This document shows positions 4,508-35,467 of a DNA stretch of 43,104 nucleotides, one piece after another (position 1 is the first letter of the stretch; each line of letters begins with the position of its first letter). Origin of the DNA: a virus; the IMG/VR virus record IMGVR_UViG_3300037264_001363, positions 1 through 43,104 of that record. One strand, 5' to 3'. The notes beneath the pieces are model-generated. The model was given only the letters and a program-made list of their open reading frames with translations, did not search any database and had not been told where the DNA came from. The position numbers and the translations under genes are program-made.

Positions 4508-4511
4508 CCTC

Positions 4512-13841: not shown

Positions 13842-14579
13842 ATGCCAAGCATCACCGGCGCCAATATTTGCCGTCAGGCGCTTCGCGAGATCGGCAAGCT
13901 CGACCCGACCGAGACGGGCGAAGCCGAACTCCTCGATGACACCATCGAGGTCGCCACGAATTTCATTGACCTCTGGCGCCGGAAACACCTGACCATCAGC
14001 GGGATCACCCGCACGGTCTACTCCCTCGTGTCTGGGACGCAGTCCTACACGATTGGCTCCGGAGGGACGTTCAACCAAGCCTGGCCGACCGCCATTGAAC
14101 GCTGGAGCGTGATTCCCGACGACGATGCCACCGATCCCGTTGAACAGCCTCGAGGCCGGCCCTACACCTGGGCGGAGTGGCAGGCGATCCGCGTCAAGAC
14201 GCAAGATGGTCCCTATCCGAGCGTGATGTACTGGGACCGTCGGTACGCGTCGGGGCTCGGGAACCTGCTCTTTCATCCTATCCCGGATAACAACGACGTC
14301 GACGTCGTGCTGTACGACGCGGTCCCGGATATCACCTCGTTGGTGCTGGACACGACCTACGATCTCCCCCCAGGGTTGACGCAGGCCCTGATTCTGACCC
14401 TCGCCGTGCGGCTCGGCCATCGGCACGGCAAGACAGTGTCCGCCGATCTGAAGACCGAGGCGCGTGAGGCGCTCGGCGCGGTCAAGGCCGCGAATCACAT
14501 CCCGCGCGAGACGCCGATCCGACCTGAGTTCTCGATCGGCCGTCGCCACGTCGCGACCAATCTCTATACGGACGGCTGA
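13842..14579 (+). CDS. Head-to-tail adaptor, P22 gp4-like tail accessory factor
   Basis: 245 residues, starting 3 nt after the preceding stop. An N-terminal helical block (ICRQALREIGKLDPTETGEAELLDDTIEVATNFIDLW in two pieces) is followed by a beta segment and a C-terminal helical block (LTQALILTLAVRLGHRHGK). This order and length fit the gp4 family (P22 is 166 aa; many relatives are longer). Twelve copies attach below the portal and close the head after packaging. Next to the gp10-like gene, as in P22. Confidence 0.75.
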   Translation: MPSITGANICRQALREIGKLDPTETGEAELLDDTIEVATNFIDLWRRKHLTISGITRTVYSLVSGTQSYTIGSGGTFNQAWPTAIERWSVIPDDDATDPVEQPRGRPYTWAEWQAIRVKTQDGPYPSVMYWDRRYASGLGNLLFHPIPDNNDVDVVLYDAVPDITSLVLDTTYDLPPGLTQALILTLAVRLGHRHGKTVSADLKTEAREALGAVKAANHIPRETPIRPEFSIGRRHVATNLYTDG

Positions 14580-16015
14580 TGCGGGTGCCGAACTTTACCT
14601 CTGGGATGGCGGATGGGCAGTCGCGCATCGTGGCGGGCGATCTGTGCATCAATCTCTTTCCCGAGAGCATCCAGGAAGGGAGTAAAGCGGTGGGCGCGCT
14701 GTGGCCGGCGCCAGGCGTGACCGTGTTCGCGACGATGACCGACACCCCCGGCCGGGGGATTTACTTCGAGAACGGGCGGATGTTCGCCGTGGGCGGGCAA
14801 ACGCTGTACGAGATCACCGAGGACGGGGTCGTCACGAGCCGTGGCACCGTGGGGATCAGCGCCGATCCGGTGACGCTGGAGACACTCCCCGATGGGTCAG
14901 AACTGTTCGTCGTCGCGGGCACGACCGGCTACATCCTCGATCTCGGGACCAACGTCCTCACGACCGAGGTCACCGCCGTCACGATGGGCGGCGAGGTGGA
15001 CGGGTTCTTCGTCGCGCTCGACGCGGAGAGCTCCACGCTGAAAATCTCCGAGTCGCTGGACGGGAAGACGTGGGACGCCTCGCAGATCGCGCAACGGACG
15101 GCCGCCTCCGACCCGTGGATTGCCATGCTGGTGGCGCGGCGGGAAATCTATCTCTTCGGGGAACGGACCGGAGAAGTCTGGTACAACGCCGGCCTGACGC
15201 CGTTTCCCTTCGCACAACGGGGCGGGGCGTTCTTTGAAACCGGGATCGCCGCCGCGCGCTCACTGTCCAGGTTTGGGACGACGATGGCGTGGCTCGGACG
15301 GGACGCCCACGGGATCGGAGCCGTGTACTGGATGAACGGCTATACCCCGAATGAAATCAGCACCCCGGCGATCCGCTGGCAGATTCAGCAGATCGCCAAC
15401 CAGCACGGCATCTCCGACGCCGTGGGGTGGACCTATGAGCGGGAGAAGCATCGGTTCTATGTCCTCACGTTCCCCGCCGGCAAGAAGACCTTCGTCTTTG
15501 ATGCACTGACAGAGAACTGGCACCAGCGCGGATTGTGGAGCGCGAGCGCCAACGACTTCGTCGCGTATCGGCCCCAGTTTCACACCGAAGCGTTCGGCAA
15601 GAATCTGGTCTGTGACCGCGAGAGCGGGAACATCTACGCCTTGTCCTCGACGGTCTATACCGACGTGGGCGGCGCTGCCTTGCGCCGCGTGCGGCGCTTT
15701 CGCCAGCCAGGGAACGAGAACAAGACCGTGTTCTATGCCTCAGCCGAGTTGGAATGTGAACGAGGGGTCGGGCTGACGGATGCCGCCGCGCAAGGGTTCG
15801 ATCCCGTCGTGGTGCTGCGGTCGTCCAACGACGGCGGGCAGACGTTCGGGGCCGATCGGTCACGGCGCGTGGGGAAGCGCGGCCAGTACGCCACGCGCGT
15901 GCGCTGGGATATGTGCGGCAGCGGCCGGGATCGGGTCTGGGAGCTGTGGTCGTCGGATCCGGTCGCGACGCGCTGGTTTGACTTCTACGTCGACGCGCAA
16001 CCGGGGGCGCACTGA
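14579..16015 (+). CDS. Packaged DNA stabilisation protein, P22 gp10-like tail hub
   Basis: 478 residues; P22 gp10 is 472. The ATG overlaps the gp4 stop by one base. Opening residues VPNFTSGMADGQSRIV.. and CINLFPE are typical. A beta-propeller pattern follows (ISESLDGKTWDASQIA, LFGERTGEVWYN, VYWMNGYTPNEIST, GWTYEREKHRFYVLTFP) and a C-terminal RRVRRFRQPGNENKTVFY segment. It forms the tail hub that binds gp4 and carries tailspikes or fibres. Confidence 0.85.
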   Translation: MRVPNFTSGMADGQSRIVAGDLCINLFPESIQEGSKAVGALWPAPGVTVFATMTDTPGRGIYFENGRMFAVGGQTLYEITEDGVVTSRGTVGISADPVTLETLPDGSELFVVAGTTGYILDLGTNVLTTEVTAVTMGGEVDGFFVALDAESSTLKISESLDGKTWDASQIAQRTAASDPWIAMLVARREIYLFGERTGEVWYNAGLTPFPFAQRGGAFFETGIAAARSLSRFGTTMAWLGRDAHGIGAVYWMNGYTPNEISTPAIRWQIQQIANQHGISDAVGWTYEREKHRFYVLTFPAGKKTFVFDALTENWHQRGLWSASANDFVAYRPQFHTEAFGKNLVCDRESGNIYALSSTVYTDVGGAALRRVRRFRQPGNENKTVFYASAELECERGVGLTDAAAQGFDPVVVLRSSNDGGQTFGADRSRRVGKRGQYATRVRWDMCGSGRDRVWELWSSDPVATRWFDFYVDAQPGAH

Positions 16016-18986: not shown

Positions 18987-19919
18987 ATGCCGGTCGACTA
19001 CGAAGGCAACCCCATCGAGGACCCACAGGATCCGTCCACGCTGCCCCCACCGCCGGGGATGGAGTGGGATCCGGTCACAGGGCAATGGGTGCCGATCCCA
19101 ACGCCTCCGCCTCCGATAGAGATGCCAGGGAGCGGGGGGCTTCCGCCTTGGTCTGAGCAATATCCCTTACCTGATGGCGGGACCGGGAACCCTGGTGGAC
19201 CAACGATTCCAGATCCGCCGCCGTGGCCTGGACAAAAAATCCCGGCCTCACCGCTGTCGCCTAAGTTACCGGGCCAGCCACCCACAGGGCAGCCTCCACC
19301 TGCAGCGCCTGGGACGCCCGGGCCGCCATCCGGGACGCCGTGGCCCTCCGGGCCGACGTCCGGGCAGACCCCGTTCACGTTCAGCCCGTTCAACCCGCCG
19401 TCGTTCGACATCGGTCGGTTCGAGGCGCCGCCGCCGTGGGCGTATCCCGACTTTGAGCCGACGACCGCCGAGAACTTCCAGACCGATCCCGGCTACGACT
19501 TCCGCGTGAAGGAGATGGAGCGGGCGGTGAACAACGCGGCATCCGCCAAAGGACTCCTGCGGACTGGGGGCACGCTCAAAGCGCTGATGGACTACCGCGG
19601 AGGACTCGCGTCGCAAGAGTTTGGCAACATCGAGAACCGCCGTCTCGGGACGTGGCAGCAGAACCGTGCGAACCAAGCCGACATCTACGACCGAGACGTG
19701 CGGAACCGGCTCACGAAGTACGGGCTCGACTACCAGGGCGAGTCGGACAAGTTTGCACGGGCGCTCGCAACCAATGACACGCAGTACGGCCAAGCCGCTG
19801 GCGGCTTCGGGCTGAACAACAATGCGATGAATCAGCAGATTCGCAACCTCATGAGCCTGTACGGGATCTACACGGCGGGCCTGCCGACCTACACGCCGAC
19901 CGCCGTCAACCCGTTCTAG
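18987..19919 (+). CDS. Proline-rich ejection-type virion protein
   Basis: 310 residues. Residues 1-150 are a disordered Pro/Gly-rich region (PPPPGMEWDPVTGQWVP and later PPSG runs). Residues about 160-310 contain a block seen in many podovirus internal proteins: DPGYDFRVKEMERAVNNAA, then SAKGLLRTGGTLKALMDY and FGNIENRRLGTWQQNRA. These are thought to be injected with DNA. The Pro-rich arm is an unusual addition. Unknown whether it has enzymatic activity; none is visible. Confidence 0.6.
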   Translation: MPVDYEGNPIEDPQDPSTLPPPPGMEWDPVTGQWVPIPTPPPPIEMPGSGGLPPWSEQYPLPDGGTGNPGGPTIPDPPPWPGQKIPASPLSPKLPGQPPTGQPPPAAPGTPGPPSGTPWPSGPTSGQTPFTFSPFNPPSFDIGRFEAPPPWAYPDFEPTTAENFQTDPGYDFRVKEMERAVNNAASAKGLLRTGGTLKALMDYRGGLASQEFGNIENRRLGTWQQNRANQADIYDRDVRNRLTKYGLDYQGESDKFARALATNDTQYGQAAGGFGLNNNAMNQQIRNLMSLYGIYTAGLPTYTPTAVNPF

Positions 19920-19927: not shown

Positions 19928-21199
19928 ATGCCACGCTATCAGGACCGGTACATCGGTGGCGGGATGGTTCCCTTGCCTCAACCAGACGATCCCATGCGGA
20001 CGCTCGCCGGGATCATGCAGTTCATGGGGCAGGCCGACGAGAACCGTGCCCGGAAGGCCGAGGACCAGTACCGCACGTCGGAGCGTGAGCGTGTGGCGAC
20101 GGATCGTTCGGTCCTCCAATCCGCGCATTCGAGCCGGTTGCCACCAGACCAAGTCGAGGCGCAACTCGCGCAACTCGGTCGGGGCGATTTGGTGCCGGTG
20201 TTCAAACAGACCTGGGGCGAGCTCGAAACGTCGCGGTTGGGGCTCAAGAAAGCGCAGGACGAGGCGAAGGAGCGGGAAGCGGACGTGTTCGGGGCATATG
20301 CGGCTGGCATCAAGAAGTCCGGCAACGACCCGCTCGCGGTCGAATGGTCGCTGCAGGAACTCGAACGGGAAGGGCGCGATGTGACCTCCCTGCGTGCGCG
20401 ACTGAAACAGCAGCCTGACGCGCTCGGGCCGCTCCTGGATGAATTTATCGCACGATCTCCCACCCAGCGGAAGCTCGCCGGCGAAGAAGAGGCACGGCGG
20501 TTGTCGGGCGAGCGCGAAGAACGAATGGTCCGGACCCAAGAGACCACGGCGGCCAATATCCTCGCGGATAACGAGAGAGCCAGGCAGGCGGCAGAGGCGA
20601 CGGCAGCGGATCGGCTGAGGAATGACGAGAGAGCCAGGCAGGCGGCAGAGGCAACTGATGCCGATCGACGGAGGAATGACGAGCGGGCGAACCGGCCGCC
20701 ACCGGTCAATAGAGCCCAGGCTGAACAGTGGAGGGCGACCCAGAAGAATGCCGTGGACGAGGCCGCGAGGCCTCGGGAAAATCGGGACGGTGAGATGGTC
20801 CCAGGGTTATCGACCCAAGACAAGGCAACGGCATACGCCCGGATCGATGCGGCCTTCTACGCGGCGATTGGCGAGCCTGCGCCAACGGACCCAGCGCCCC
20901 AGCGCAGCGTCGGTGCGCCAGGCCACTTACGGAAGCCCTCGACGCGCGTCGCTCCAGCCGGTCCAGCCTCTGCTCCCGCCGGCGGGAACGTCTCTCCTGC
21001 ACGAGCGCCACAGGCTGCACCGCCCCAGGCGCCTCGGTCGGCAGGTCGGTCCATCACCGTCAACGGGCAGCCGGTCGAGGTCACATCCACGCCGGTGGTC
21101 GGAAAGATCATCCCGTTGAAGAACGGCGGCTACCTCCTCGTCACCACCGTCGAAGCCAATGGCGATTTTGATGGCGATGAACTGACCGTCCAGCCATAG
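19928..21199 (+). CDS. Long coiled-coil internal virion protein (423 aa)
   Basis: Helical, highly charged protein. Residues 60-270 form an extended coiled coil. At about 216-251 there are two tandem 18-residue units (ERARQAAEATAADRLRND and a near copy). Residues 290-370 are Pro/Ala-rich; the C-terminal ~55 residues (SITVNGQPVEVTSTPVVGK, then IPLKNGGYLLVTT) form a beta domain. It directly precedes the giant protein (3-nt gap), so it may pair with it in the particle. Confidence 0.5.
   Translation: MPRYQDRYIGGGMVPLPQPDDPMRTLAGIMQFMGQADENRARKAEDQYRTSERERVATDRSVLQSAHSSRLPPDQVEAQLAQLGRGDLVPVFKQTWGELETSRLGLKKAQDEAKEREADVFGAYAAGIKKSGNDPLAVEWSLQELEREGRDVTSLRARLKQQPDALGPLLDEFIARSPTQRKLAGEEEARRLSGEREERMVRTQETTAANILADNERARQAAEATAADRLRNDERARQAAEATDADRRRNDERANRPPPVNRAQAEQWRATQKNAVDEAARPRENRDGEMVPGLSTQDKATAYARIDAAFYAAIGEPAPTDPAPQRSVGAPGHLRKPSTRVAPAGPASAPAGGNVSPARAPQAAPPQAPRSAGRSITVNGQPVEVTSTPVVGKIIPLKNGGYLLVTTVEANGDFDGDELTVQP
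20573..20680 (+). repeat. Two tandem 54-bp units in coiled-coil gene
   Basis: Starting GAGAGAGCCAGGCAGGCGG at 20573 and 20627, exactly 54 bp apart. Encodes the 18-residue ERARQAAEAT unit twice, with a partial third (DERAN). Confidence 0.7.
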
Positions 21200-21202: not shown

Positions 21203-24200
21203 ATGCCGCAATCCGCTCGGCGGCCGCGGTTCACGGCGGCTGACATCGCCCCTCCACCACGGCCGCGCTTCTCGGCGGCCGACATTGCCGATCCAGAGCC
21301 TGATGCAGTGGCCCGCGCGCCGGCTGCCGCACGCTTCCGCGCCGCTGACATCGCCCCGTTACGATTCTCCAGACGCGATCTCGCGCCAGCGGTCGCCACG
21401 CCGCCTCCCGCATTCGCCACGGCTGGGATGCTGCGGCCGAGCACCGCGCAGGACACCATTATTGAGGGGCCAGGCCCACGCACGCGCGGCCAGACGATCC
21501 GTGCAGCGGGGGATGGCGTCCCGCTTGATGGCCGCCTCCCACAGCTCGCCAGGGCGGTCGCCAGAGGCGTTGCCGGCATCCCTGAATTCGCCGCGGAAGG
21601 CGCGGTCGCGGCGGCGCGCATCATCCCACCCTCCATGCCAGGAGTCGCCACACCAGGCGCGGCCGTCAAGGCGCTGATCCCGCTCGCCCAAGCCGTGAGT
21701 CGTGGGGCGCGTGCAGTGCGAGAGAGCGCCGCGTTGGCGCCAACACCAGCCGCACAGGCCATTGCGCAGCGTGACCCAATCGATGACGTCGCGGTGCTTA
21801 CGGAGCCGGACTGGTGGATTGAGAATGCCGGGGAGGGCCTCGGGTCACAGCTCGCGTTCTTCCTCCCGGCCGCCGCGATCCAGAAACTCACCCAGGCGCC
21901 GGCGGCACTCGCCAAAGGGGCCTCACTCGTCGCCAGGGCGAAGCGGTTGGTCGTGGCGAGTCGCGGGGTGGCGGCTGGTGCGGCGTTTGAAGCGTTCGTC
22001 GAAGCCGGGGGCCAACACCGCGATGCGCTCGACAAGGGCGTGGACGCCGATCGTGCGGCCGAACTGGCGGCGTCAGCCTTCGCGCAGCAGTTCGGCCTCC
22101 TGATGGCCTCAGCGGTGCCAGGGTACGTCCTGCCGGCGTCCAAGCGACTCGCGACACGTCTGACGGCTGGCGCCGTCGGCGAAGCGACGCAGGAGAGCGG
22201 CCAGACCGTGATCGGGAATCGTCTGGCGAGGGAATACGACCCATCGAGGCCGTGGTCACAGGGGGTGGCGACGGCCGGAATCGTGGCGGGTCCGCTTGGC
22301 GCGGCTGGGGCGGTCGGACTTCGTCAACAGGCGCCTCCACCCACCCCAATAGAGGCCCAGCGTGAGCCAGGACGGCGCGGCGCCTACAGCCTTGACGACA
22401 TCCAAGAGACTCCGGCGGCCGTGGCGTCGCCCGCGCCCGAGACGGTGCCGCTGCCCTCCTCAGCGGAGACCCCGGCCGGGCGGCCTGCGGCTGCCGGAGA
22501 CGTGGTGGACCTGACGCCGCCGAAGGCCAAGCGCGAGACCGAAAAGGACGCAACGAGTCAGGCTTACCTGGCGCACCCGCTGAAATACAACCCGCTCGAC
22601 CTTTACAACAAGGCCACGTTCAATGAGCCGATGACGGATGACGAGCAGCAGTGGTACTCCTCGCTTCAAGTGTCCCGGCAAGAGGACAAAGAGAAGTGGG
22701 AGCGAGAGTGGGGCGCCAAGCACGACGCGATGCGCGAAAAAGAGGGACTACCGCCGCGAGTCATACCCGCCCAGAAGCCAGCCGCCGAGATGTCCGATGA
22801 CGACCTGACGGCCAAGCCGAGTCTCGGTGTGCGGATCGAAGGCATCACAGACATTCAGGCGGTCGATTCGTGGGAAGCGGCGGGACAGATGATTGATGCC
22901 CTCCGTGACCGGCTTGAGAGCGAGGGAGCCGGTGGTGCGAGTCAGTTTCCAGACATCTCGATTGTGGATGCGCGCACAGGGAAGACCATCGGCCGAGGCA
23001 GTTATAACGGGAGGCTCTGGGACGCTGAGACGGGTGTGGAGATCGAGCGTAATGATGGACGTGGCTATGGGAAGGCTCCTGCTATTGAGGCGGCGCCGCC
23101 GAGCCGGGCCGCCGAGATGTCCGATGAGGAGATCACCGCGGCCATCATGGCGCGGCTGGAGCAGGAGGCCGCGCCGATTCAGACGCAGCCACAGGAATCA
23201 CCAGCCGGCTTTCAGGCGCCAGTGCGACAGAGTGGCGCGGATCTCGGTCGAGCCGCGTTCGCGAAGGGACAGAAGCGAATCGCGCCTCGTGGCGTCATAG
23301 CAAACGGCCATGCGGAGGCGTGGTATCAGGGCTGGGACGAGGCGAACGTCGGGGCACCCGTGCCAGGGTGGACAGCCGAAGAGAACGCCGCGAGGCCATC
23401 CGCGCAGGCGACGCAGAGCCGCGACGCTATGCTCGCCCAATTAGCCCCATTCGGCGAGTCCATCAGCTTCATGCTTGATCGTGCTGACGTGGACTTAGCC
23501 GAGCTGGCCCGACGGCCCAAAGAAGCCGATGCGCTACTAGAACAGCTCGCCGCGTACGACACCGCTTGGCGTGGGATGGAGTCTGGGTCACCAGCAGAGG
23601 CAGTCCAGGGCGTTCACATCGAGAAGTATATCCGGGCGCTCGCGGCGCGACTACGAGAGCCAATCCAAGTTGGGGCTGGGCGGACGACGGCTGCGGCCGA
23701 AGGCCCGCAAATCACCTACAACAGCCGATTGCAGTCCGTCGAGATCGCCTTTCCATCGAAGCCCGCGGCTGATGTCCTGGCTGGGCTCAAGAAGGCGGGC
23801 TACCGGTGGGCGAAGACGAACAAGGTCTGGTATCGGCGGCAGGGGAGCCTGCCAGAGGCGCAGGCGGTGGCGGAGGCGCGTGGGATCGTCGGCATCGGCC
23901 CGACGATGATCCCTGGCATGACCGAGGTGGCGGTCAGCCCAGATGTCCGTGTCCGGCAGGAGATGGAGGCTCGGACGACCGAGGAGTTGACCGCGATCGC
24001 CTACGGCACAGACAAGCGGGCTACAACGAGAGAACAGCGCATCGCGTTAGAAGTGCGCAACGACCGGCTCCCGGACGCGCCGAAGCCAGACAAGGCGCGC
24101 CTCATCCCCACACGGACCGAAGGCGGCGGCGTGCGGTACGTCACCGAGCCGGTGCAGGCGCCTCCGTCGAAGGAGGAGTTCACGACAGGCCAGCAGACTC

Positions 24201-27200
24201 GAAGACCGATTCCGCTCACGACACGATGGTCTGAAGCTCGGAACCAAGCCGCCGTGCGGAAGATCGACATCTCGCGGGCTGAGAACATCGACGAGGCCGA
24301 GGCGATGCTTGCGGCGGTGCCCGTTCCAGCGAAGGCCGCTGACCTGGACGCCAGAAAGGCCGCCAACAAGGCGAAGCGCGACGCCCTTGCGGCCGAACTC
24401 GCCAAAGAGTTAGGGACGACCCTCAACGTCGGCGCCGACCCGAAGCACATCAAATTGATGGTCGGGATCATGCGGACGTACATCGACGACGGCGTCGTGG
24501 AATTCGAGCGTGCTTGGCGGATGTTCAAGGAGGAGTACGCTGTCCTCGCGGCGAAGACCGAGCGGGCGTTTGAACTGGCGTGGGAGATGCTGCGGGGGGA
24601 AACCCGCACAGTTGACAGCCTCCAGGAAGAGGCGCACACTCCGGACCAGGATGTCCAAGGCAACCGACCCGGTCGTGATCCTGCCTCGGAACTACCCGAG
24701 CGTGGAGGCGTCACCGCTCAGCCCAGTGGAACTGGACGCGAAGGCCCATTGGGAGCAGTTCGTCCCGAGTCGGGTCAAGGCGCTCAGGGCGCAGGGGGGC
24801 GAGCAGGCGTTCGAGACAGCGGTCCGGGCGGCGTGGTGGTACCAGGCGTATCAGACGACGCTCGCGCAGGCACGGAACCCGGCACTGCATTCGATCCAAG
24901 CGGCGGAACCGTTTCGGGAGGAGCTCTGGCCACCTCCGGAGACGCCGCCGACCCAGGCGTCCCCCCTGGCGACTACCAGCTCACCCCAGCCCGCATAGCC
25001 GCGATTATCTCGCGTCCAGCCGGCGTCAGACTCAGGGACAACGTCGCCGCCATCAGGATGGTGAAGACGATTCTTGTTGAGCAGCGCCACCCAACCAGCG
25101 CCGAACAAGAGGCCCTCGCCAAGTATGTGGGCTGGGGCGACAACGCCCTTGCGCAGTTCCTCGCCGATGAGCCCAAATACGACTGGAGTGGGCCGCAGAA
25201 GGCGATCTGGCGCGACCTGCAATCCGTTCTGACCGAGAACGAGCGCGCGAGTCTCATCCGCTCGTCGCCGAATGCCCATTTCACATTTGACCTGTACGCC
25301 CCCATCTGGTCCGCCCTTGAGGCGGCCGGGTTCCATGGCGGCCGCGTGCTCGAGCCGGCGGTCGGGACTGGGCACGCCTTTGGGTTCATGTCGCCAGCCG
25401 TGCGGCAGCAGTCCACGTTGACCGCGGTGGAACTGGATGCGTTCACCGCGCTGATCGCGCAGGCCCTCTATCCGTCAGCGAAGGTGCAGGTCAGCGGGTA
25501 CGAGAAGGCACGGATCCCACGGGGGACGCAGGACCTCGTCATCAGCAATGTCCCGTTCGGGGACTTCGGCGTCGAAGATAACCGGTTCCCGAAGTTCATC
25601 ACGGACCGGATCCATAACTACTTCTTCGCTCGCGCACTGGAGCACGTCCGCCCTGGCGGGTTCGTGGTGTTCGTCACGTCCCGGTACACGATGGACGGGC
25701 CGCAAGGGGCCCGGGTCAGGCAATACCTGATGGAGCGGGCACACTTCGTCGGGGCGGTGCGGCTCCCGAATACCGCGTTCGACAAAACGGCCAAAACGGA
25801 AGTCGTGACCGACCTCATCGTGCTTCAACGGATGGAGGACGGCGAAACCGGTGCCGCGCGGAACGCCAAGGCGTTTATTGAATCACCGAAGGTGGAGGCG
25901 TTCAGCGGCGAGGTGACACAGGGCTGGGGCCGGAATGCCAAGCGCGTACAGCGGAACGTCTACCGTTCCTCCTGGTACACCGACCACCCCGAGCTTCTCT
26001 TGGGCACCGAGAGCCTCGAAGGCACCATGCGGGCTGGCGGGGAGTACACGGTCACGGCGACCACCGCCGATCTGCAGGACGCGATCCGGACGGCGCTCCG
26101 CACGATCCTCCCAGAGGGGGCGTATCGCCCAGCCACGTCACAAGCCACCACAGAGGCCCCCACGTTAGCAGAAGGCCGGTTTACGGTCGGGGAGTACCGG
26201 ATTGGACCACAGGGCCAAATCCTCCGTGTGTCTGACCAGGACGGGGCGCTGGTTGACGCGACGCCGAAGGGAAAGACGGCCGCCGCCAGGATTCGCGGCA
26301 TGGTGGGCATCCGTGACTACCTGCGGGCCGTGGTTGCCGCCATGCGGACCGACCAGTCGGACGCCGAGATCCGGACGGCCCAGAAGCGCCTGTCGAAGGC
26401 GTACAAGGACTTTGTCAGCAAACACGGCATCCTGAACGCACTGGAGAACCGCCGGACGTTCCAAACCGATCCGGACGCGACGAACCTCCTTGGGCTGGAA
26501 CACGTCCACATTGTCGCCACCGAGAAGCTGGTCAAAGGCACGCGCACGATAGCCGGGGAAGTGACCGTCAAGGCGCTCTCCGATATCTTCACGAAGCGGA
26601 CGATTCACGCCGTCGCCGAGATCGACCGCGCCGAGACCCCTCGGGACGCGCTCCTGGCGTCCTTGAGTTCTCGGGCCGTGATTGACTGGGACTACATCGC
26701 GCGCATCAGCGGGCAGACAGCCGAGGCACAACAGACCGCGCTGCTCGCCGAGGGGCTCGTGTTCGAGCAGCCTGATGGGACGTGGGCGCTCAGGGACGAG
26801 TACCTGAGCGGCGATGTCAAAACCAAGCTCGCCGACGCGGAGGCGGCTGATCCAGCGACGTTCGCGCGCAACGTGGAGGCGCTCCGTGCCGTCCAGCCCA
26901 CCGAGAAGACGGTCGCCGACACGCAGATTGCCTTCGGGGCGCATTGGGTGCCGCAGGACGTCCGAGAGGCGTTCGTCGCGGAGCAACTCGGGCTCGACGC
27001 CGACGACGTCACGATCCGGCACGACCAGACGCTGACCTACTCCCGCTGGACGCTGAACTACAGGGGCCAGTCGCAGGGGCGAGCCCAAGCGCATCCGCTC
27101 GCCGTGCCGTATGGGCCTGACCACGGCGGGCAGAAGCCCTACGTCTACACGTTTACGGAACTCGTCGATGATGCGCTCAACCTCCGGCTTCCCGATCTGA

Positions 27201-30200
27201 AGTGGACGGAGGGCAGCGGTGACAAAAAGCACACCGTGCGCGATCCGCGTGGCACAGAAGCGGCGCGGGCGAACCTCGATGAACTGGATCGCCAGTGGCA
27301 GACGTGGGTCTACAGCAACGCGGCGCGCACCGATCGCTTGCTGACGATCTATAACGAGCGGATGAACCGGACCGTCCCGCGGGTGTTCGACGGATCGCAC
27401 TTGGCTAACGTCACGGCGTGGAATCCAGAGACGAAGACCGGGACGCGGACGCGCGCCTTGCCTGGTCTCGCCCTGCCGTTCCCGCTCCACCCGCACCAGC
27501 TCCGCGGGATCTGGCGGGCGATCGTGTCGGGCAATACCCTCCTGGCGCACGACGTTGGGGCCGGGAAGACCTTCGAGATGATCGTGATCGCGATGGAGAT
27601 GCGGCGGCTGGGGCGAGCCAGAAAGCCGATGATCACGGTGCCGACGTATCTCCTCGGACAGTGGCGCGAGGACATCGTCAAGGCGTATCCGCAGGCGAAG
27701 ATTCTGGCGTTCACGGAAGAGGATCTCGGGGCGGAGAAACGCCAAGCCGCGATGGCACGGATTGCGTTCGGCGACTGGGACATCGTGCTCGTGCCGCACT
27801 CGTCGTTTCAACTCCTCTCGGTGTCCGATGCGCGCATGGCGTCCATGCTCCAACAGATTCTGGACGAGATCGTCGCGGCGGAGGCAGAGGCCATCGACCG
27901 AGACGGGGCGGATCACCCCTCCGTCAAGCAACTGGCCCGACGCCGCAGGCAAATCGAGGACAAGCTCAACGAGAAGCTCGACAAGATCAAGAAGGCGGGC
28001 TCATCGAAGAATCTCACGTGGGAGGACCTCGGCGTCGATGCGCTGATCGTCGACGAAGCCCAGAGCTTCAAGAACCTGTACTTCCACACCAACATCAACG
28101 GCCTGCGTGGGCTCTCGAACTCGGAGGCGGATAAGTCGCTCGACCTGTACGTCAAGGTCCAGGACATCAACGAAGCGAGCCACTACCGGAACCTGATCTT
28201 CGCCACGGCGACGCCCGTCATGAACTCGCTCGCCGAGGCGTTCACGATGCAGCGGTATCTCCAGCCTCAGCGGCTCAGGGATGCGGGCCTGCATCACTTC
28301 GACAACTGGTATGCAGCCTTCGCGAAAGTGGCCAGCGCCCCTGAGCAACTGCCGGACGGCAGCTATCGCGAGGTGCGGCGCCTCCAGGACTTTAAGAACC
28401 TCAAGACGCTCCACCAGATGTTCGCCGAGGTGATGGACTACGTGTCGATGGCTGACATGCCGTACCTCAAGCTCCCGACGCTCGAAGGCGGCAAAGTCAC
28501 GGTAATCAACACCGACCCGCATCCGGCGTACGACATCATCAAGAACTGGTTCACGCGCCGGCTGGATGAACTGCGGAAGAACCGGCCCTGGTACAACTAC
28601 CGGACGAAGGTCTACAACGCCCCGACCCGGATTCACCCGATCAGCGGGCAGGTCATTGCAGGACAGAAGGGGCCAGCCAAGGACAATATCCTGACGGTGA
28701 TGAAGGATGCGGCCTTCGCGGCGGTCGATCCACGGCTCGTGCTCGGCCGCTACGTGGAGGACGTCAAGGGGTCACGGGTGCAGACCGCAGCGAGGGAGAT
28801 GGCGGCGTGGTATCGGAAGGAGCGCGGCAAGAAGGGCGTCACCCTGGTCTTCATGGACGTGGGGACGCCACAGAGTCCTTCGCCGCTAGAGTTTCTCGGG
28901 ACGGTCGCCAGCTCGGCTGAGGGCCTCGAGGAAGCCGGGCTCGACGATGTGCCGTTCGACGAAGAAGCGGACGGGCCAGACGTCGAGGATACCGCGGCGG
29001 CCTTCAACCTCTACGACGCGCTGAAGCAGGCCCTGATCGAGCGGGGCGTCCCGTCGCGCGAGATTGCGTATGTCCACCAAGCGAGGAACGCGGCGGAACG
29101 GCTGGCGCTGTTTCAAGCAGCGCGCGCCGGAGAGATCCGGTTCGTGTTCGCCTCGACCGACATCGGCGGCGTCGGGATGAGCATTCAGGAGCGCCTTGGG
29201 CACATGGTGGAGATCGATGTCCCGCGCCACCGCCGCCCTGGCGACGTGCGGCAGCGGTTCGGGCGCATCATCCGGCAGGGCAACACCTACGACACCGTGC
29301 GGATTACGCGGTTCGTCACCAAGGGCACCAGTGACGAATGGAGCTACGGCCTGATCGCCAAGAAGGCGACCGGGATCGACCAGTTCATGCGTGGCGAGGC
29401 GGATACCTTCAGCGACGAGGACCCGCTCAACCGGTCGATCGAGGAAGCGCAGATCCTGGCGACCGGCGATCCGCGCGGGATCGACCTCATCAAGCTCCGG
29501 AACGAGGCGCAGCGGCTGGAGTCGCAGGCGATTGCGCAGAAGCGCAGCCTTGCGAGGGCGACGGGGGCGCAGCAGGAAGCGACGGCCGCCATCGCGACGT
29601 ACACCGAGCGGCTCCAAAGGTTTACGGAGTGGATGGCGAAGCACTGGGTGTCGCTGAAGGCAGACCGGTTCGTGATGACGGTCGACGGGACGGCGATCAC
29701 GGACCGGAAGGCGGCCAATACGGCGCTCCTCGCGCACGGGCCGGCCGTGCTACAGGCGCGCAACCTCCAGACGCCGGTCGTGCTCGGGAAACTCGGGCCG
29801 TTCCCGCTGACGGCGCTGTACTCGGAGGACTCGTATGGGCGCGGCTCGGTGTACTACGCCTTCGATGCCCAGAGCACAGACATGGGCACGATTGGCGTGA
29901 TCGTCGACAAGCCGCCCGCTGGGGAGACATTCGGTGAGGGGTCGAACGTCGTGCAGTCGCTCGTGAGCCGGTACGAGAATATCTCCAACAAGGCGGCCGA
30001 CCTTCAGGCGTCTCTCACGCACTGGACGAAGGAACTGGCGACCGCCGAGCAGGCCATCCGCCAAGCCGGCGAGAGCGACATCGTGCGTCGGTGGCAGGCC
30101 GCGAAGCAGAAGGCCGAGGCGTTGGGGGCCACGCTGGCCGCGGAGAGTGCCGCGCAGGCCGCCACCAGAGACGAGGCCGCCAAGGCGCCGAAGGCCGTCG

Positions 30201-32917
30201 CGGCGCTGGACAGTATCGAGGACGCGGCGAAGGCGCGTATCGCGGAACGCGGCACCTTCCGCGGCGGCCGTGTGGGCGCCGGGATCCCTGTCGATGACCT
30301 CGCGGACTTGGTGATTATCGGCGCCGCCAAGATCGCGAAGGGCACCATCCAGTTCGCGCAATGGTCAGCAGAGATGGTGCGCGAGTTCGGCGAGGCGGTC
30401 CGGCCGCACCTCCAGACCATCTTTGACCAAGCGAAGCTGCGGGCGGCGGCATTCGGGCCGCGGCCGTTCTACCAGGACTCCGGGCGCGCTGTGCCGCCGG
30501 CGAAGCCAATCCCGGATGCGCGCATTCTGGAGTTCCCGTCCATTCAGAAGATGCCGGAGGCGATCCGGCTGGATGTCCAGCACCTCCTCGAGGAGTTCGG
30601 CGGCTTCGAGGGGCAGCGCAGAGGCGTGCAGTCATGGGCGAGAACCGAGGAACTGGCGAAGGATGTCTGGCTCCCGCTGGAGACGTTGAAGCCTGGGACG
30701 ACGGCGAACGCGGCGGAGTTGAAGCAGTACCAGAATGCCATCGCCGCGGCCTTGTCGGCCCGCAAGCCGCTCCTTCAGAAACTCGCGGACAAGACGGCGA
30801 CCGATTGGGACAAGGCGCAGGTCGTGTACTTGACCAACGTGGCGACGGTGTTGACGGGCAGTTACCGAGGGCTCAAGGCCGAAACCGGGCGGGCCATGAA
30901 CATCCTGAAGACCCAGGGCCGTATCCTCGACTTGCGCGAGTCGAAGTTTTTAGAGCGGATGCTTGAGGCCACAGGGTTCAACGGGGATCTGGCCCAGATT
31001 GCCGCCGACGACTTGAAGGCCGCTGGGGACCCCTTGAAGCAGTTGCAGCTCCTCCGGCAGCGGACGCGCGGGACATGGTTCGACTACGTGCAGGCGTACT
31101 ACTACGGGAATATCCTCTCCGGGATCAAGACGCAGGAGCGCAACACCATCGGGAACAGTTTCAACGCCCTCGCGAATCTCGTCGTGCCACTCGGGGCTAT
31201 CCCGGCTGATCTGTATCGCGTGGCGAGGCATGGGGGCGAGCGGTCGATCTACGCCAGCGAACTCCCCCACGCCATTGCGGGCACGTTCGTGGGCGTCGAC
31301 GTGGGTGTGCGGAATGCGTGGTTCGTCTTCACGCAAGGGTTCAGGCGCTCAGCCGTGACGGCGGCGGAGGAGACGGGGAAGTTCGACACGCCGCGGTTCG
31401 AGATGCCTGGCGGGCTCAAGAATCCCTGGAACATCCCTGGGCGTGGGCTCGAAGCGATGGATGAGTTCTTCGGCGGCATCGCCTACCACCAGGAACTCCA
31501 CGCAGGCGCGTTCGCCCAGGCTCGGCAGGAAGGGCTGAGGGACAAGGCCAGCATCGCTGACCGGATGGCCACGCTGTTCGCGGCGACGGACCGGAACACG
31601 CGGGATGGGCAGATTGCGGAGGCGTTGATCGCACGGGCGGCGCAGTACAAGGCGCACGCGACCTTTAACGAGGCGCCAGGCGAGATCACTAAGGGGTTCC
31701 TGTGGTTCAAAGATCAGGAACGATCGGTCCCGGTGCGCGCCGCCTCGACGATTCTGGCCCCCTTCATGCGCATCACAGGGGCCATCACGCGCCAAGGGTT
31801 CGAGTGGTCTCCGGCGGGCTTCGCGATGCGTGGCGCGCGGTCATCCGACCCGCGGGTGCAAGCCCAAGCGCGCGGCCGGGCGATCCTTGGGAGCCTCCTC
31901 ATGGCGCCGATCATCTGGGCCGCGGCGAAGGGCTTGTTGACAGGAGCGCCGCCTGATGACGAAGGCGAACGCGAAGAGTTCTACGCGCAAGGGAAGATCG
32001 GCAACGCGGTAAAACTCGTCCTCCCGTGGGGCGAGTACTGGGTGAGGTACGTCCTCTTCCAGCCGTATTCGATCATGCTGTCAGCATGGGCCAACGCATG
32101 GAAGGCTTGGGAGGAGTCAGCGCAGGACGACGCCGCGGCGCAACATGCCCTTCTGGCTGGACTGGCCGGCGCGGGACGGTCTCTGCTCGATCAGTCCTTC
32201 CTCTCTGGGTTGGAGTCGTTCCAAGCGGCCCTGGACGACCCGAGAGCGGCGTGGCGGTGGGGCAGCCTCTTCGTGCAAGGGCTGGTGCCGCTGAGCGGGC
32301 TCGCGCGCAACATCACCCAGGCGGTCGATCCGTATCAGCGGGCCCCTGTCGGGGTCCGCGAGAGCGTCATGGCCATCACGCCTGGGCTGTCGTCACGGGT
32401 GCCGGTTAGGCGGGATCGGTTCGGTGAGCCCGTGGTGCCACGGCCTGGCGGGGCTCTCCAGCGTGGCTTCGCGGTGCCAGAGGTGTCCAAGGCCGTGGAA
32501 GACCGCGTGACGGAGACGTTGGCGCGGCTCCGAGTGCGCCCGGGGCGTCCCAACACCAGCCTCACGATTCGCGGAGAGACGGTGCGCCTGACGCGGCCAC
32601 AGCAGGACGCCCTCATCGAGGCGGTCGGGCGTGAAGCGAAAGTCGCGCTGGAGCGGACGATTGCGCGGGAGCAGACGGAGGAACGACGCGCGTTCGCGGA
32701 CGTGGCCGATGAGATACAAGTCGAACGACTCCAAGGGGCACGTGAGCGGGCCAGTCGCTCTGTCCGGGCTCGCGCAACACGGGCCATGCTTCGAGGGACA
32801 CCCTTCACTGCAGAACATCTCATATCGGACGACGTCCGCGCGCAGCAGGAGCGGGATCAGCGTACCCTGCTCCGCGGGTTGCGAGAGAGGCCAGTGAGTC
32901 GTGCTGTGGGTCAGTGA
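21203..32917 (+). CDS. Giant polyvalent protein: adenine-methylase-like, SNF2 helicase and LPD domains
   Basis: 3904 residues, one uninterrupted frame. Residues 9-61: four RFxAADIA-type motifs. About 90-390: Ala-rich, partly hydrophobic. About 836-880: a polyvalent-protein domain (GLKKAGYRWAKTNKVWYRR). About 1259-1548: N6-methylase-like domain with LEPAVGTGHAFGF (about 1383) and NVPFG (about 1450). About 2095-2694: SNF2-type helicase with DVGAGKT (about 2119), DEAQ (2284-2287), FATATPVMNS (2333) and QRFGRIIRQGN (2684). About 3016-3060 and 3113-3735: further LPD regions, the last resembling LPD38. Such proteins (DarB-like in phage P1; polyvalent proteins) enter with DNA and counter host defence. 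Cargo role here is inferred from its place after ejection genes. Confidence 0.85.
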   Translation: MPQSARRPRFTAADIAPPPRPRFSAADIADPEPDAVARAPAAARFRAADIAPLRFSRRDLAPAVATPPPAFATAGMLRPSTAQDTIIEGPGPRTRGQTIRAAGDGVPLDGRLPQLARAVARGVAGIPEFAAEGAVAAARIIPPSMPGVATPGAAVKALIPLAQAVSRGARAVRESAALAPTPAAQAIAQRDPIDDVAVLTEPDWWIENAGEGLGSQLAFFLPAAAIQKLTQAPAALAKGASLVARAKRLVVASRGVAAGAAFEAFVEAGGQHRDALDKGVDADRAAELAASAFAQQFGLLMASAVPGYVLPASKRLATRLTAGAVGEATQESGQTVIGNRLAREYDPSRPWSQGVATAGIVAGPLGAAGAVGLRQQAPPPTPIEAQREPGRRGAYSLDDIQETPAAVASPAPETVPLPSSAETPAGRPAAAGDVVDLTPPKAKRETEKDATSQAYLAHPLKYNPLDLYNKATFNEPMTDDEQQWYSSLQVSRQEDKEKWEREWGAKHDAMREKEGLPPRVIPAQKPAAEMSDDDLTAKPSLGVRIEGITDIQAVDSWEAAGQMIDALRDRLESEGAGGASQFPDISIVDARTGKTIGRGSYNGRLWDAETGVEIERNDGRGYGKAPAIEAAPPSRAAEMSDEEITAAIMARLEQEAAPIQTQPQESPAGFQAPVRQSGADLGRAAFAKGQKRIAPRGVIANGHAEAWYQGWDEANVGAPVPGWTAEENAARPSAQATQSRDAMLAQLAPFGESISFMLDRADVDLAELARRPKEADALLEQLAAYDTAWRGMESGSPAEAVQGVHIEKYIRALAARLREPIQVGAGRTTAAAEGPQITYNSRLQSVEIAFPSKPAADVLAGLKKAGYRWAKTNKVWYRRQGSLPEAQAVAEARGIVGIGPTMIPGMTEVAVSPDVRVRQEMEARTTEELTAIAYGTDKRATTREQRIALEVRNDRLPDAPKPDKARLIPTRTEGGGVRYVTEPVQAPPSKEEFTTGQQTRRPIPLTTRWSEARNQAAVRKIDISRAENIDEAEAMLAAVPVPAKAADLDARKAANKAKRDALAAELAKELGTTLNVGADPKHIKLMVGIMRTYIDDGVVEFERAWRMFKEEYAVLAAKTERAFELAWEMLRGETRTVDSLQEEAHTPDQDVQGNRPGRDPASELPERGGVTAQPSGTGREGPLGAVRPESGQGAQGAGGRAGVRDSGPGGVVVPGVSDDARAGTEPGTAFDPSGGTVSGGALATSGDAADPGVPPGDYQLTPARIAAIISRPAGVRLRDNVAAIRMVKTILVEQRHPTSAEQEALAKYVGWGDNALAQFLADEPKYDWSGPQKAIWRDLQSVLTENERASLIRSSPNAHFTFDLYAPIWSALEAAGFHGGRVLEPAVGTGHAFGFMSPAVRQQSTLTAVELDAFTALIAQALYPSAKVQVSGYEKARIPRGTQDLVISNVPFGDFGVEDNRFPKFITDRIHNYFFARALEHVRPGGFVVFVTSRYTMDGPQGARVRQYLMERAHFVGAVRLPNTAFDKTAKTEVVTDLIVLQRMEDGETGAARNAKAFIESPKVEAFSGEVTQGWGRNAKRVQRNVYRSSWYTDHPELLLGTESLEGTMRAGGEYTVTATTADLQDAIRTALRTILPEGAYRPATSQATTEAPTLAEGRFTVGEYRIGPQGQILRVSDQDGALVDATPKGKTAAARIRGMVGIRDYLRAVVAAMRTDQSDAEIRTAQKRLSKAYKDFVSKHGILNALENRRTFQTDPDATNLLGLEHVHIVATEKLVKGTRTIAGEVTVKALSDIFTKRTIHAVAEIDRAETPRDALLASLSSRAVIDWDYIARISGQTAEAQQTALLAEGLVFEQPDGTWALRDEYLSGDVKTKLADAEAADPATFARNVEALRAVQPTEKTVADTQIAFGAHWVPQDVREAFVAEQLGLDADDVTIRHDQTLTYSRWTLNYRGQSQGRAQAHPLAVPYGPDHGGQKPYVYTFTELVDDALNLRLPDLKWTEGSGDKKHTVRDPRGTEAARANLDELDRQWQTWVYSNAARTDRLLTIYNERMNRTVPRVFDGSHLANVTAWNPETKTGTRTRALPGLALPFPLHPHQLRGIWRAIVSGNTLLAHDVGAGKTFEMIVIAMEMRRLGRARKPMITVPTYLLGQWREDIVKAYPQAKILAFTEEDLGAEKRQAAMARIAFGDWDIVLVPHSSFQLLSVSDARMASMLQQILDEIVAAEAEAIDRDGADHPSVKQLARRRRQIEDKLNEKLDKIKKAGSSKNLTWEDLGVDALIVDEAQSFKNLYFHTNINGLRGLSNSEADKSLDLYVKVQDINEASHYRNLIFATATPVMNSLAEAFTMQRYLQPQRLRDAGLHHFDNWYAAFAKVASAPEQLPDGSYREVRRLQDFKNLKTLHQMFAEVMDYVSMADMPYLKLPTLEGGKVTVINTDPHPAYDIIKNWFTRRLDELRKNRPWYNYRTKVYNAPTRIHPISGQVIAGQKGPAKDNILTVMKDAAFAAVDPRLVLGRYVEDVKGSRVQTAAREMAAWYRKERGKKGVTLVFMDVGTPQSPSPLEFLGTVASSAEGLEEAGLDDVPFDEEADGPDVEDTAAAFNLYDALKQALIERGVPSREIAYVHQARNAAERLALFQAARAGEIRFVFASTDIGGVGMSIQERLGHMVEIDVPRHRRPGDVRQRFGRIIRQGNTYDTVRITRFVTKGTSDEWSYGLIAKKATGIDQFMRGEADTFSDEDPLNRSIEEAQILATGDPRGIDLIKLRNEAQRLESQAIAQKRSLARATGAQQEATAAIATYTERLQRFTEWMAKHWVSLKADRFVMTVDGTAITDRKAANTALLAHGPAVLQARNLQTPVVLGKLGPFPLTALYSEDSYGRGSVYYAFDAQSTDMGTIGVIVDKPPAGETFGEGSNVVQSLVSRYENISNKAADLQASLTHWTKELATAEQAIRQAGESDIVRRWQAAKQKAEALGATLAAESAAQAATRDEAAKAPKAVAALDSIEDAAKARIAERGTFRGGRVGAGIPVDDLADLVIIGAAKIAKGTIQFAQWSAEMVREFGEAVRPHLQTIFDQAKLRAAAFGPRPFYQDSGRAVPPAKPIPDARILEFPSIQKMPEAIRLDVQHLLEEFGGFEGQRRGVQSWARTEELAKDVWLPLETLKPGTTANAAELKQYQNAIAAALSARKPLLQKLADKTATDWDKAQVVYLTNVATVLTGSYRGLKAETGRAMNILKTQGRILDLRESKFLERMLEATGFNGDLAQIAADDLKAAGDPLKQLQLLRQRTRGTWFDYVQAYYYGNILSGIKTQERNTIGNSFNALANLVVPLGAIPADLYRVARHGGERSIYASELPHAIAGTFVGVDVGVRNAWFVFTQGFRRSAVTAAEETGKFDTPRFEMPGGLKNPWNIPGRGLEAMDEFFGGIAYHQELHAGAFAQARQEGLRDKASIADRMATLFAATDRNTRDGQIAEALIARAAQYKAHATFNEAPGEITKGFLWFKDQERSVPVRAASTILAPFMRITGAITRQGFEWSPAGFAMRGARSSDPRVQAQARGRAILGSLLMAPIIWAAAKGLLTGAPPDDEGEREEFYAQGKIGNAVKLVLPWGEYWVRYVLFQPYSIMLSAWANAWKAWEESAQDDAAAQHALLAGLAGAGRSLLDQSFLSGLESFQAALDDPRAAWRWGSLFVQGLVPLSGLARNITQAVDPYQRAPVGVRESVMAITPGLSSRVPVRRDRFGEPVVPRPGGALQRGFAVPEVSKAVEDRVTETLARLRVRPGRPNTSLTIRGETVRLTRPQQDALIEAVGREAKVALERTIAREQTEERRAFADVADEIQVERLQGARERASRSVRARATRAMLRGTPFTAEHLISDDVRAQQERDQRTLLRGLRERPVSRAVGQ

Positions 32918-33063: not shown

Positions 33064-34746
33064 ATGATGCGAGTCCGACGCGCGCTGGTCTTCCTGGCGC
33101 TCCTCCTATGTGCGCCGCTGGCGTTCGGACAGAGCGGAACGCCCGCCCCTGTGATCTCTCATCAGTTCCTCACCAACACAGGCGCGGTCTGCAGCGGATG
33201 CTTGCTCAATGCCTATCTGACCGGCACGACCACGCGACAGGACACGTTCACCGAGGTCACGCTCACCACCGCGAACGCGAATCCCATCGTGCTCGACAGT
33301 GCGGGGCGGGCGACCATCTTCCTCTCGGCCACGAGTTACCGGTTCGTCCTCACCAACTCGACAGGCGGCACGACCTACTGGACCCGCGATAATGTCTCGG
33401 CCGTCCCATCGACGGCGGTCTCCCTGGACGTGACCGGGACGGCCGGGGTGGCGATCTCGGTCGGGCAAGTGGTCTACCTCTCGGATGGCAGCGGGGCCTT
33501 GACCGCAGGGCGCTGGTATTTGGCCGACGCCGATTTCACCTATGCGTCGAGCTTCGCGCGGGCGATTGCGATCGCCCCAGCGGCCGTCGCCAGCGGGGCC
33601 GATGGGTCGTTCCGGCTCCAAGGGCGCGTGACCGGGCTGTCGGGCCTGACCGCTGCCGGCACCTACTACGTCTCCACTACAGCCGGCGCGACCACGGCGA
33701 CGGCGCCCACGAATGCCAGGTTCGTCGGTGGGGCGGATTCCACCACCTCCCTGATCGTCGCGGCGAACCCGTTTATGGCGACGGCGCTCACCCAGAACCT
33801 CCAGATCCAAGCTGCCACGCCGTACACGATGACCTTTCCCGCGGCGGCGTCCTACGGGCTTCTCCTGAGCACGGCCGCCGGCGTCGTCACCATGAACGCC
33901 GACATGATCCCGCTGGCGTGTCAAGGCCGGCTGACGCTCACCACGGCGGTCCCGGTGACGACGTCCGATGTGACGGCGGCGGGCACTATCTACTACACGC
34001 CCTACTTGGGAGGCGCCAGGTGTGCGCTCTTCGACGGGACGAATTGGTCGGTGTCCACCTTCACCGAGCGGTCGCTGGCGCTGACGGTGACCTCGGGGAA
34101 CAACTACGACGTCTTTCTGTACTCCAACGCGGGCACGCTGACACTCGAGCTCTCCGCGGTGTGGACGAACGACACAACGCGGGCCGACGCCATTTCGCTC
34201 CAGAACGGGGTGTATGTCAAAACGTCGGCGACGACCCGGCGATACCTCGGCACGATTCGGGCGTCCGGGTCAAACACGACCGAGGACAGCGACCTGAAGC
34301 GGTTCGTCTGGAACGTCGAGAACCGCGTGCCACGAGTCCTCCGCGTCGCCGAGGGGACGAACACCTGGACCTACACCACGGCCACCTTGCGGCAAGCCAA
34401 CGGCGCGGCGGGGAATCAGGTCGAGGTCGTGGTGGGACTGGTGGGGACGCCCATCAGGCTCGACCTGGCCGCGAACGCGAAGAATACCGGCGCCGGCGTG
34501 GAATTCCAGTCCACGATCGGGCTCGACTCAACCACGGCTGGGACCACCGTCCTGGGCGGCAATGCCCACGCCCCCGCCGCGAATGTCCCCGTGTACGTGC
34601 GGGCGACGTTACGCGCCGCCGTCCCGTTGGGCTACCATTTTTACGCCTGGCTGGAGTATTCCGGCGCCGCCGGGACGACGACGTGGACCGGGGACGACGG
34701 CACGACACGTATCGTGACCGGCTTGCTCGGCTGGGTGGAAGGGTGA
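33064..34746 (+). CDS. Tail fibre protein with signal peptide
   Basis: 560 residues from ATG 33064. Residues 1-22 form a Sec-type signal (MMRVRRALVFLALLLCAPLA; cut near FGQ). Residues about 25-110 are the N-terminal fibre head common in podovirus fibres (GCLLNAYLTGTTTRQDTFTE, NPIVLDSAGRATIFL, YRFVLTNSTGGT). The C-terminal half carries a widespread fibre domain: IYYTPYLGGARCALFDG, YDVFLYSNAGTLTLELSAVW, ISLQNGVYVKTSATTRRYLG, RVPRVLRV. Likely receptor-binding appendage attached to the hub. The signal peptide is odd for a virion fibre. Confidence 0.75.
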   Translation: MMRVRRALVFLALLLCAPLAFGQSGTPAPVISHQFLTNTGAVCSGCLLNAYLTGTTTRQDTFTEVTLTTANANPIVLDSAGRATIFLSATSYRFVLTNSTGGTTYWTRDNVSAVPSTAVSLDVTGTAGVAISVGQVVYLSDGSGALTAGRWYLADADFTYASSFARAIAIAPAAVASGADGSFRLQGRVTGLSGLTAAGTYYVSTTAGATTATAPTNARFVGGADSTTSLIVAANPFMATALTQNLQIQAATPYTMTFPAAASYGLLLSTAAGVVTMNADMIPLACQGRLTLTTAVPVTTSDVTAAGTIYYTPYLGGARCALFDGTNWSVSTFTERSLALTVTSGNNYDVFLYSNAGTLTLELSAVWTNDTTRADAISLQNGVYVKTSATTRRYLGTIRASGSNTTEDSDLKRFVWNVENRVPRVLRVAEGTNTWTYTTATLRQANGAAGNQVEVVVGLVGTPIRLDLAANAKNTGAGVEFQSTIGLDSTTAGTTVLGGNAHAPAANVPVYVRATLRAAVPLGYHFYAWLEYSGAAGTTTWTGDDGTTRIVTGLLGWVEG

Positions 34747-34760: not shown

Positions 34761-35018
34761 ATGGCCAGCGACGAGCACGACCATGAGCCCAACGGGTTGA
34801 CGCCCCTCTGGGTGCGGCTCGTCTACCGGTACGGGGTGCCCGCGGCGATCGCGCTGTTCCTGACCTACACCATCACGAGTTCCGTGGCCTCCGATGTGAC
34901 GGCCATGCGGCAGGAACACTTAGAACTGCGGTTCTACTTGCGCGGGATCTGTTTGAACACCGCGCAAAGTGAATCCCAGCGTTCGGCGTGCGTGCCACCT
35001 AATGAGGCGCCGCGATGA
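34761..35018 (+). CDS. Small membrane protein of lysis cassette (85 aa)
   Basis: ATG 34761 after a GAGGGG site. One transmembrane helix at about 24-43 (VPAAIALFLTYTITSSVA), then a periplasm-like C-terminal part with two Cys (GICLNTAQ, SACVPP). Its stop overlaps the endolysin ATG (ATGA). Holin- or spanin-like by context; not assignable by sequence. Confidence 0.5.
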   Translation: MASDEHDHEPNGLTPLWVRLVYRYGVPAAIALFLTYTITSSVASDVTAMRQEHLELRFYLRGICLNTAQSESQRSACVPPNEAPR

Positions 35019-35467
35019 CGCTCTTCGAGTGCGCTCAGCGGTTCGTCGGGGAGGTCCAGGAGCGACCGGGCGGGCTGGACTCGCCATTCATCCAGTGGTG
35101 CCACGAGTCGTGTGGCCTGAGCCCCGATACGCCTGACGAGATCCCCTGGTGTAGTTCGTTTCTCAATCGGCTCTGCTGGCAACTGCGGCTCCCGCGGTCG
35201 AAGTCGGCGCGGGCGAGGTCATGGCTCCTCGTCGGACGCGTGGTGCCGCTCCATGATGATGCTCAGATTGGGGACGTGGTGATTCTGCGGCGGGGGGGAT
35301 CGACGGCTGGCCCGGAGGTGATCAACGCCCCCGGGCACGTCGGGCTCTTCGCGGGCGCGGATCTGATGCGCGGCACCGTGCACATCCTTGGTGGCAATCA
35401 GAGCGATGGCGTCACGGTGGCGGCGCTGAAGGCCATGGACGTGCTCGGGGTGCGGAGGCTCACATGA
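35015..35467 (+). CDS. Endolysin-type cysteine amidase/peptidase (TIGR02594/CHAP-like)
   Basis: 150 residues. Catalytic triad pattern of NlpC/P60-CHAP folds is visible: Cys46 in IPWCSSF, His108 in GHVGLF, and Asn128 in LGGNQ. The GDVVIL strand precedes the His. The length equals that of the single-domain TIGR02594 group. It should cut host peptidoglycan peptides or amides for lysis. Overlaps genes on both sides by ATGA, so it is translationally coupled to membrane proteins. No signal peptide, so a holin is needed for release. Confidence 0.75.
   Translation: MTLFECAQRFVGEVQERPGGLDSPFIQWCHESCGLSPDTPDEIPWCSSFLNRLCWQLRLPRSKSARARSWLLVGRVVPLHDDAQIGDVVILRRGGSTAGPEVINAPGHVGLFAGADLMRGTVHILGGNQSDGVTVAALKAMDVLGVRRLT

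Follow-up and report, generated by a model that had tools for sequence, protein, structure and literature searches.

The giant protein encoded by this phage DNA looks, from comparison of its sequence with those of its relatives, less like a single new enzyme than like a delivery chassis whose cargo is interchangeable: relatives keep a C-terminal module that shares homology with internal virion protein D from T7-like phages, and the enzymatic domains that precede it are exchanged. The window analysed here spans 43,104 bases, the whole of a virus record from IMG/VR that is classed as linear, and has the giant gene in one copy; no close DNA relative was found in the phage collection searched. As an earlier note on this DNA had stated, the 3904-residue frame runs with zero internal stops, and each of the five motifs quoted in that note occurs once in the protein (Table 1). 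The choice of start codon is supported by the N-terminus (MPQ..RFTA-[AS]-[DE]-I), which resembles the start of the related giant L002, the first 24 residues being alike (p 0.005).

Table 1. Features of the giant protein and its gene neighbourhood in the window.
Feature	Residues	Position	Strand	Basis or remark
Head closure protein, P22 gp10-type ("packaged DNA stabilization")		14579..16015	+	
DNA ejection protein (phrog_598)		18987..19919	+	upstream of giant in L002, L003, L015, VvAW1 and L004 too
Uncharacterised 423-aa gene directly upstream of giant		19928..21199	+	in place of JC1 gp68 (JC1 gene order: PMC9144972)
Giant ORF, 424.7 kDa	3904 aa	21203..32917	+	reading frame without internal stop
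Four copies of RF[TSR][AR][AR]D[IL]A, in first 62 residues	9-16, 22-29, 44-51, 54-61	21227..21385	+	
Ala-rich, partly hydrophobic region	~100-380	21500..22342	+	same place as other giants' N-terminal region
Small segment, phrog_19458 type (annotated primase)	810-879	23630..23839	+	E 7.3e-5; also in L002
Predicted adenine N6-methylase domain with helical N-terminal part	1256-1720	24968..26362	+	fold model and profile
Methylase motif I LEPAVGTGH (AdoMet binding)	1383	25349..25375	+	
Methylase motif IV NVPFG (NPPF-type)	1449	25547..25561	+	as in P1 DarB
SNF2-type ATPase, C-terminal to methylase	~2096-2740	27488..29422	+	Pfam, PHROG
Walker A DVGAGKT	2117	27551..27571	+	
Walker B DEAQ	2284	28052..28063	+	
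Helicase motif VI QRFGRIIRQGN	2684	29252..29284	+	
Constant C-terminal module, "internal virion protein D"/phrog_6651 type	2998-3890	30194..32872	+	proposed ejection vehicle
Small helical hinge domain at cargo-vehicle junction	3005-3085	30215..30457	+	in most giants
Next gene downstream of giant		33064..34746	+	conserved after giant in L003 and L015

Judged by sequence, the enzyme core of the giant is of a known, DarB-like kind, in line with the polyvalent methylase-SNF2 identity first proposed for it. The family phrog_10089 ("DarB-like antirestriction") matches residues 1272-3004 with 1191.6 bits, which indicates that the five motifs are not chance occurrences, and Pfam recognises SNF2-rel_dom (2.7e-10) and Helicase_C (1.5e-7). 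A tblastn search with residues 1901-2866 matched 76 phage records, the match spanning 80% or more of the query in 49, with identities of no more than 36% among the matches listed. The methylase part, modelled from eight sequences (pLDDT 77, pTM 0.76), resembles lmo1582 (2.2e-11), EcoKI M (4.5e-10), TaqI (1.1e-8, rmsd 3.2 over 190 columns) and also BseCI M in the PDB, and a sequence-profile search agrees with the model (EcoKI M 1.2e-9, TaqI 2.3e-7). With a predicted TaqI/EcoKI M fold and a matching profile, the domain falls into the gamma class of adenine methylases, with NVPFG as a variant of motif IV. This motif reads NVPF in the window, L003, L008, L009, L013, L014 and P1 DarB; the remaining phage giants in which it was located have NPPF. 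Motifs I and IV are retained in most of the relatives sampled (in L009 motif IV only was found). Close relatives were checked for loss of the Walker A and methylase residues, and L003 shows no such loss: it keeps every motif at only 36% identity. Pfam gave no LPD match in any part of the protein, so the LPD domains that had also been assigned to the giant could not be recovered. Ahead of the methylase, where LPD36 (helices, GXGU motif) would be expected, there are helices and a YVGWG motif, and neither LPD38 nor any other Pfam model matches residues 3001-3904. The giant likewise gave no Pfam or PHROG match to a lytic transglycosylase domain.

The earlier note had further suggested that residues 2700-3904 could hold new effector domains. 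Instead, residues 2998-3890 share homology with internal virion protein D and remain constant while the effector domains change, which points to delivery and not effect; on sequence grounds a new C-terminal effector is unlikely, and the module is best read as a delivery vehicle. A tblastn search with residues 3101-3904 found six phage records only (E 8e-9 to 1e-17), half of them annotated as internal virion protein D, from T7-like phages, and the module matches internal virion protein D of the Roseobacter and Desulfovibrio T7-like phages CRP-804 and ProddE. The family phrog_6651, "internal virion protein", matches the window at E 7.6e-14 and is also matched by L002, L004, L015, L016, ProddE, CRP-804 and ctQWt234. 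In ProddE the gene for internal virion protein D comes after those for internal virion proteins B and C, and in the window, as in phrog_6651 (ProddE-type) phages, the module gene adjoins other ejection-cassette genes. In phage ctQWt234, where a large part of the gene order seen in the window recurs but the cargo is missing, the module is a bare 1121-residue protein at the same syntenic place, a few genes after an acetyltransferase gene.

The module profile matched neither P1 DarB nor any of the eight known DarB-like giants compared with it (VvAW1, LASTA, CSP3, 8P, Y7 and POI1126 included); profile-profile comparison (hhalign) of the module with the C-terminal parts of the known giants was borderline (E 0.024), as was the pairwise comparison of those C-termini with T7 gp16 (E 0.038). 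Direct homology to T7 gp16 was not detected, the module giving no match by hhalign and ProddE protein D none by blastp. The structure model of the module (AlphaFold2, six sequences) was poor, with a pLDDT of 47. Another copy of the hinge domain, suspected by eye near residues 1090-1160, was discarded, since the domain HMM finds only residues 3005-3085 in the window. A relative of the module is carried by a 39-kb Bordetella bronchiseptica "plasmid" (NZ_CP132331.1, 18024-18992), which may for that reason be a phage or phage-plasmid.

The exchange of cargo is seen directly when the relatives are aligned. Across the relatives the module is 54-70% identical; that of the window shares 63, 57 and 56% with those of L003, L002 and L015, respectively, and L002 and L015 share 70%. 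Over the methylase-helicase part the window and L003 are 36% identical, against 63% for the module, so that it is the module that appears conserved with the phage lineage; identity changes at residue ~2998 of the window's giant, where the small helical domain begins. L003, the closest full-length relative (1313-12655, 3780 residues), combines the methylase-helicase with an extra 2H phosphoesterase ahead of it (residues 613-733; PF13563 1.4e-12; anti-CBASS Acb1 model 0.0005, below the cut-off), possibly a second, ejected anti-defence activity. The L015 giant (L015:3221-12709, 3162 residues) has neither methylase nor helicase and carries a ParB-like region, two ART-PolyVal stretches (1.3e-29), a PBECR5 nuclease (6.4e-21) and, by eye, a HEIGH zincin-like motif; its contig, JACDCY010000010.1, was binned as Gemmatimonadaceae, a weak clue to the host. 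In L002 the giant is cut by the contig end (2062+ residues) and includes the phrog_19458 segment, and methylase and helicase are absent both from it and from the rest of its 61-kb record.

At the opposite end of the protein, the four short repeats are a candidate capsid-targeting signal, proposed by analogy with P1 DarB, whose N-terminal 30 residues target a reporter to the capsid (PMC9024508). The motif occurs on no other protein of the window. In L004, L007, 8P and CRP-804 other short sequences are each repeated twice near the protein start. In a test with composition-preserving shuffles, 5 of 20 giants had N-terminal repeats at p <= 0.005, whereas among the controls, scored at p <= 0.01, one internal window out of 120 and one N-terminus out of 65 from other phage genes passed (Fisher 2e-4 and 0.002); these p-values are optimistic because the test was designed after the pattern had been seen in some of these proteins. 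A match of residues 85-400 to the N-terminal domains of other giants was not accepted (best hhalign E 0.002, probability 13%). From residue ~380 to ~1250 the giant is mostly low-complexity linker plus the small phrog_19458-type segment, and a new effector domain was not demonstrated in that stretch. Around residues 685-720 (about 23255-23362), AAFAKGQKRIAPRG...AWYQGWDEA resembles a ribosome modulation factor motif by eye, with no Pfam match.

The giant gene sits in a structural operon, between ejection and fibre-like genes; PHROG matches of the window's genes show, in order, genes for scaffold, major head, fibre-like and ejection proteins, and the L003 record shows the same gene run (seen in L010). 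The P22-like setting described before holds, as the head closure protein matches P22 gp10-type packaged DNA stabilization proteins. The statement that the giant follows directly after ejection proteins is close to correct: a phrog_598 ejection gene does lie upstream, with the 423-residue gene between the two. Several further observations concern this region. An acetyltransferase-like ORF (15780-17537; phrog_1249, plus phrog_1644 minor coat in the same frame) lies between the head closure and ejection genes, and JC1 and ctQWt234 have an acetyltransferase at the corresponding place. Two fibre-like or structural genes, 12137-13327 (MMRHLVVLVLALLLAPILLHAQ) and 33064-34746 (MMRVRRALVFLALLLCAPLAFGQ), start with apparent secretion signal peptides, which is odd in virion proteins. 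A small endolysin-like protein (phrog_1259, 35015-35467) has a homologue (L017:11594-12004) in Roseobacter phage CRP-804, which also shares the C-terminal module. In the end regions (1-3364 and 41619-43104), a small terminase lies near the right end, and the libraries used recognised no large terminase or portal on the ORFs tried; probably the genome in this record is circularly permuted or has been cut.

Taken together, we consider it likely that the giant is a polyvalent protein that is packaged in the virion and ejected, and that consists of signal, cargo and vehicle. Packaging and ejection are very likely for this protein of an uncultured phage because its homologue JC1 gp69 is found in virions and is encoded in the same gene order. 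During assembly, the N-terminal repeats and the C-terminal module of ~890 residues would place the giant inside the head beside the other ejection proteins. On infection, to judge by its homologues, it would exit through portal and tail, at least partly unfolded, and in the envelope conduit the module would behave as other internal virion proteins do. In the cytoplasm, as P1 DarB and the predicted fold suggest, the SNF2 ATPase may track along the entering DNA and the adenine methylase may mark or shield it, such that type I-like restriction by the host could not act; the antirestriction role is thus one we infer. The cargo appears exchangeable: on this module, relatives have ADP-ribosyltransferases, nucleases or a 2H phosphoesterase, which replace the methylase-helicase or accompany it.

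How the C-terminal ~890 residues are read is central to this model. That they act as an effector inside the host cell, with ejection left to separate upstream proteins only, would fit a long region that is predicted to be mostly helical and has no Pfam family. However, this is the part conserved when the cargo changes, its homologues among T7-like phages are internal virion proteins in the gp16 gene position, and the few invariant columns of a nine-sequence module alignment contain no obvious catalytic-type motif, so we regard an effector role as improbable. Still less probable, to the point of being doubtful in the extreme, is that the giant is made in the infected cell and stays there as a helicase-methylase for replication or self-modification of progeny DNA: methylase-helicase fusions are widespread outside virions (PMC5512222), but the gene lies between ejection and fibre-like genes in a structural operon, the enzyme core is fused to an internal-virion-protein module, and both P1 DarB and JC1 gp69, the closest characterised analogue, are virion proteins.

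A variant of the preferred reading, in which the giant is packaged and ejected as proposed and the methylase is catalytically dead, deserves more weight than either of these, although we still think it rather unlikely. Protection would then come from physical coating or clearing of the entering DNA, as the strictly cis action of Dar proteins and the physical obstruction proposed for them (PMC12707154) could suggest, and motif IV reads NVPFG and not NPP(Y/F), with V replacing the first P. Against this, L003, L008, L009, L013, L014 and P1 DarB retain motif I as well as the N, P and F of motif IV (for L009, only motif IV was found), which suggests selection, and the model predicts an intact methylase fold.

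Giant DarB-like virion proteins, polyvalent modularity and packaging into virions are already known. What appears to be new is the fusion of a DarB-like core to an internal-virion-protein family and the comparison of a constant vehicle with changing cargo, neither of which was found in the literature searched. This natural comparison separates the part that delivers from the part that acts in a giant ejected protein. More tentatively, with confidence a little short of even, we propose a general phage protein-delivery chassis shared by P22-like and T7-like phages, in which a short repeated N-terminal tag and a conserved C-terminal ejection module would bring interchangeable multi-enzyme payloads, up to some 3000 residues long, into the host, among them the antirestriction methylase-helicase, ADP-ribosyltransferase/nuclease sets and the 2H phosphoesterase. 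If tag and module suffice for packaging and ejection, the way in which podophages bring 400-kDa enzymes into a cell can be tested one part at a time, and unknown anti-defence enzymes can be sought in the payload region.

The nearest characterised homologues of the window's giant are the DarB-like giants (~4500 residues) of Bcep22-like podophages, a group comprising Lessievirus JC1 gp69 and CSP3 orf43 with the relatives VvAW1, LASTA, Atu_ph08 and POI1126. They share its methylase-SNF2 core (29-36% identity) and are of similar size, whereas their C-terminal parts are undetected by the window's C-terminal profile and borderline by hhalign; CSP3 and others additionally carry a lytic transglycosylase in the same chain, a domain that Pfam and PHROG do not find in the window's giant. 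JC1 gp69 is the nearest published homologue of the whole layout: this 4515-residue protein was detected in purified virions by mass spectrometry with 51 unique peptides, and its gene follows head closure, acetyltransferase and virion-protein genes, the same order as in the window (PMC9144972). P1 DarB, a virion-packaged antirestriction protein with an N-terminal targeting signal (PMC9024508), has the same NVPFG motif and is 31% identical to the window's giant in the methylase (over 176 residues) and 22% in the helicase. In contrast, it is 2255 residues long, lacks the C-terminal internal-virion module and works from a myophage head with DarA and Hdf as partners; PHROG matches of the window genes scanned included no DarA, Hdf, DdrA, DdrB or Ulx. 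Type I restriction is countered in cis by the co-ejected Dar proteins (PMC12810830, PMC12707154); with protection only in cis and physical shielding proposed, the enzymatic mechanism of DarB is unsettled (PMC12707154).

Other systems match parts of this layout. The internal virion protein D of ProddE and CRP-804 (Autographiviridae, phrog_6651) is homologous to the window's C-terminus over ~800 residues and is also encoded in an ejection cassette, but measures only 1217-1268 residues and has no methylase or helicase cargo. Polyvalent proteins resemble the giant in being multidomain conflict proteins that combine a methylase-SNF2 dyad with effector domains open to exchange, whereas a constant C-terminal internal-virion-protein module with swapped cargo is not described in the passages of that work consulted here (Iyer et al. 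2017). The N4 virion RNA polymerase (gp50) holds a different enzyme, and no sequence match with the window was detected; nevertheless, it is a single chain of ~3500 residues with the enzyme in the middle that works like the window's giant (PMC5512222, PMC12633501). Its N-terminal region is reported to be involved in injection and its C-terminal region to be required for encapsidation (PMC5512222), and as an ejection protein this polymerase exits the particle (PMC5512222, PMC12633501).
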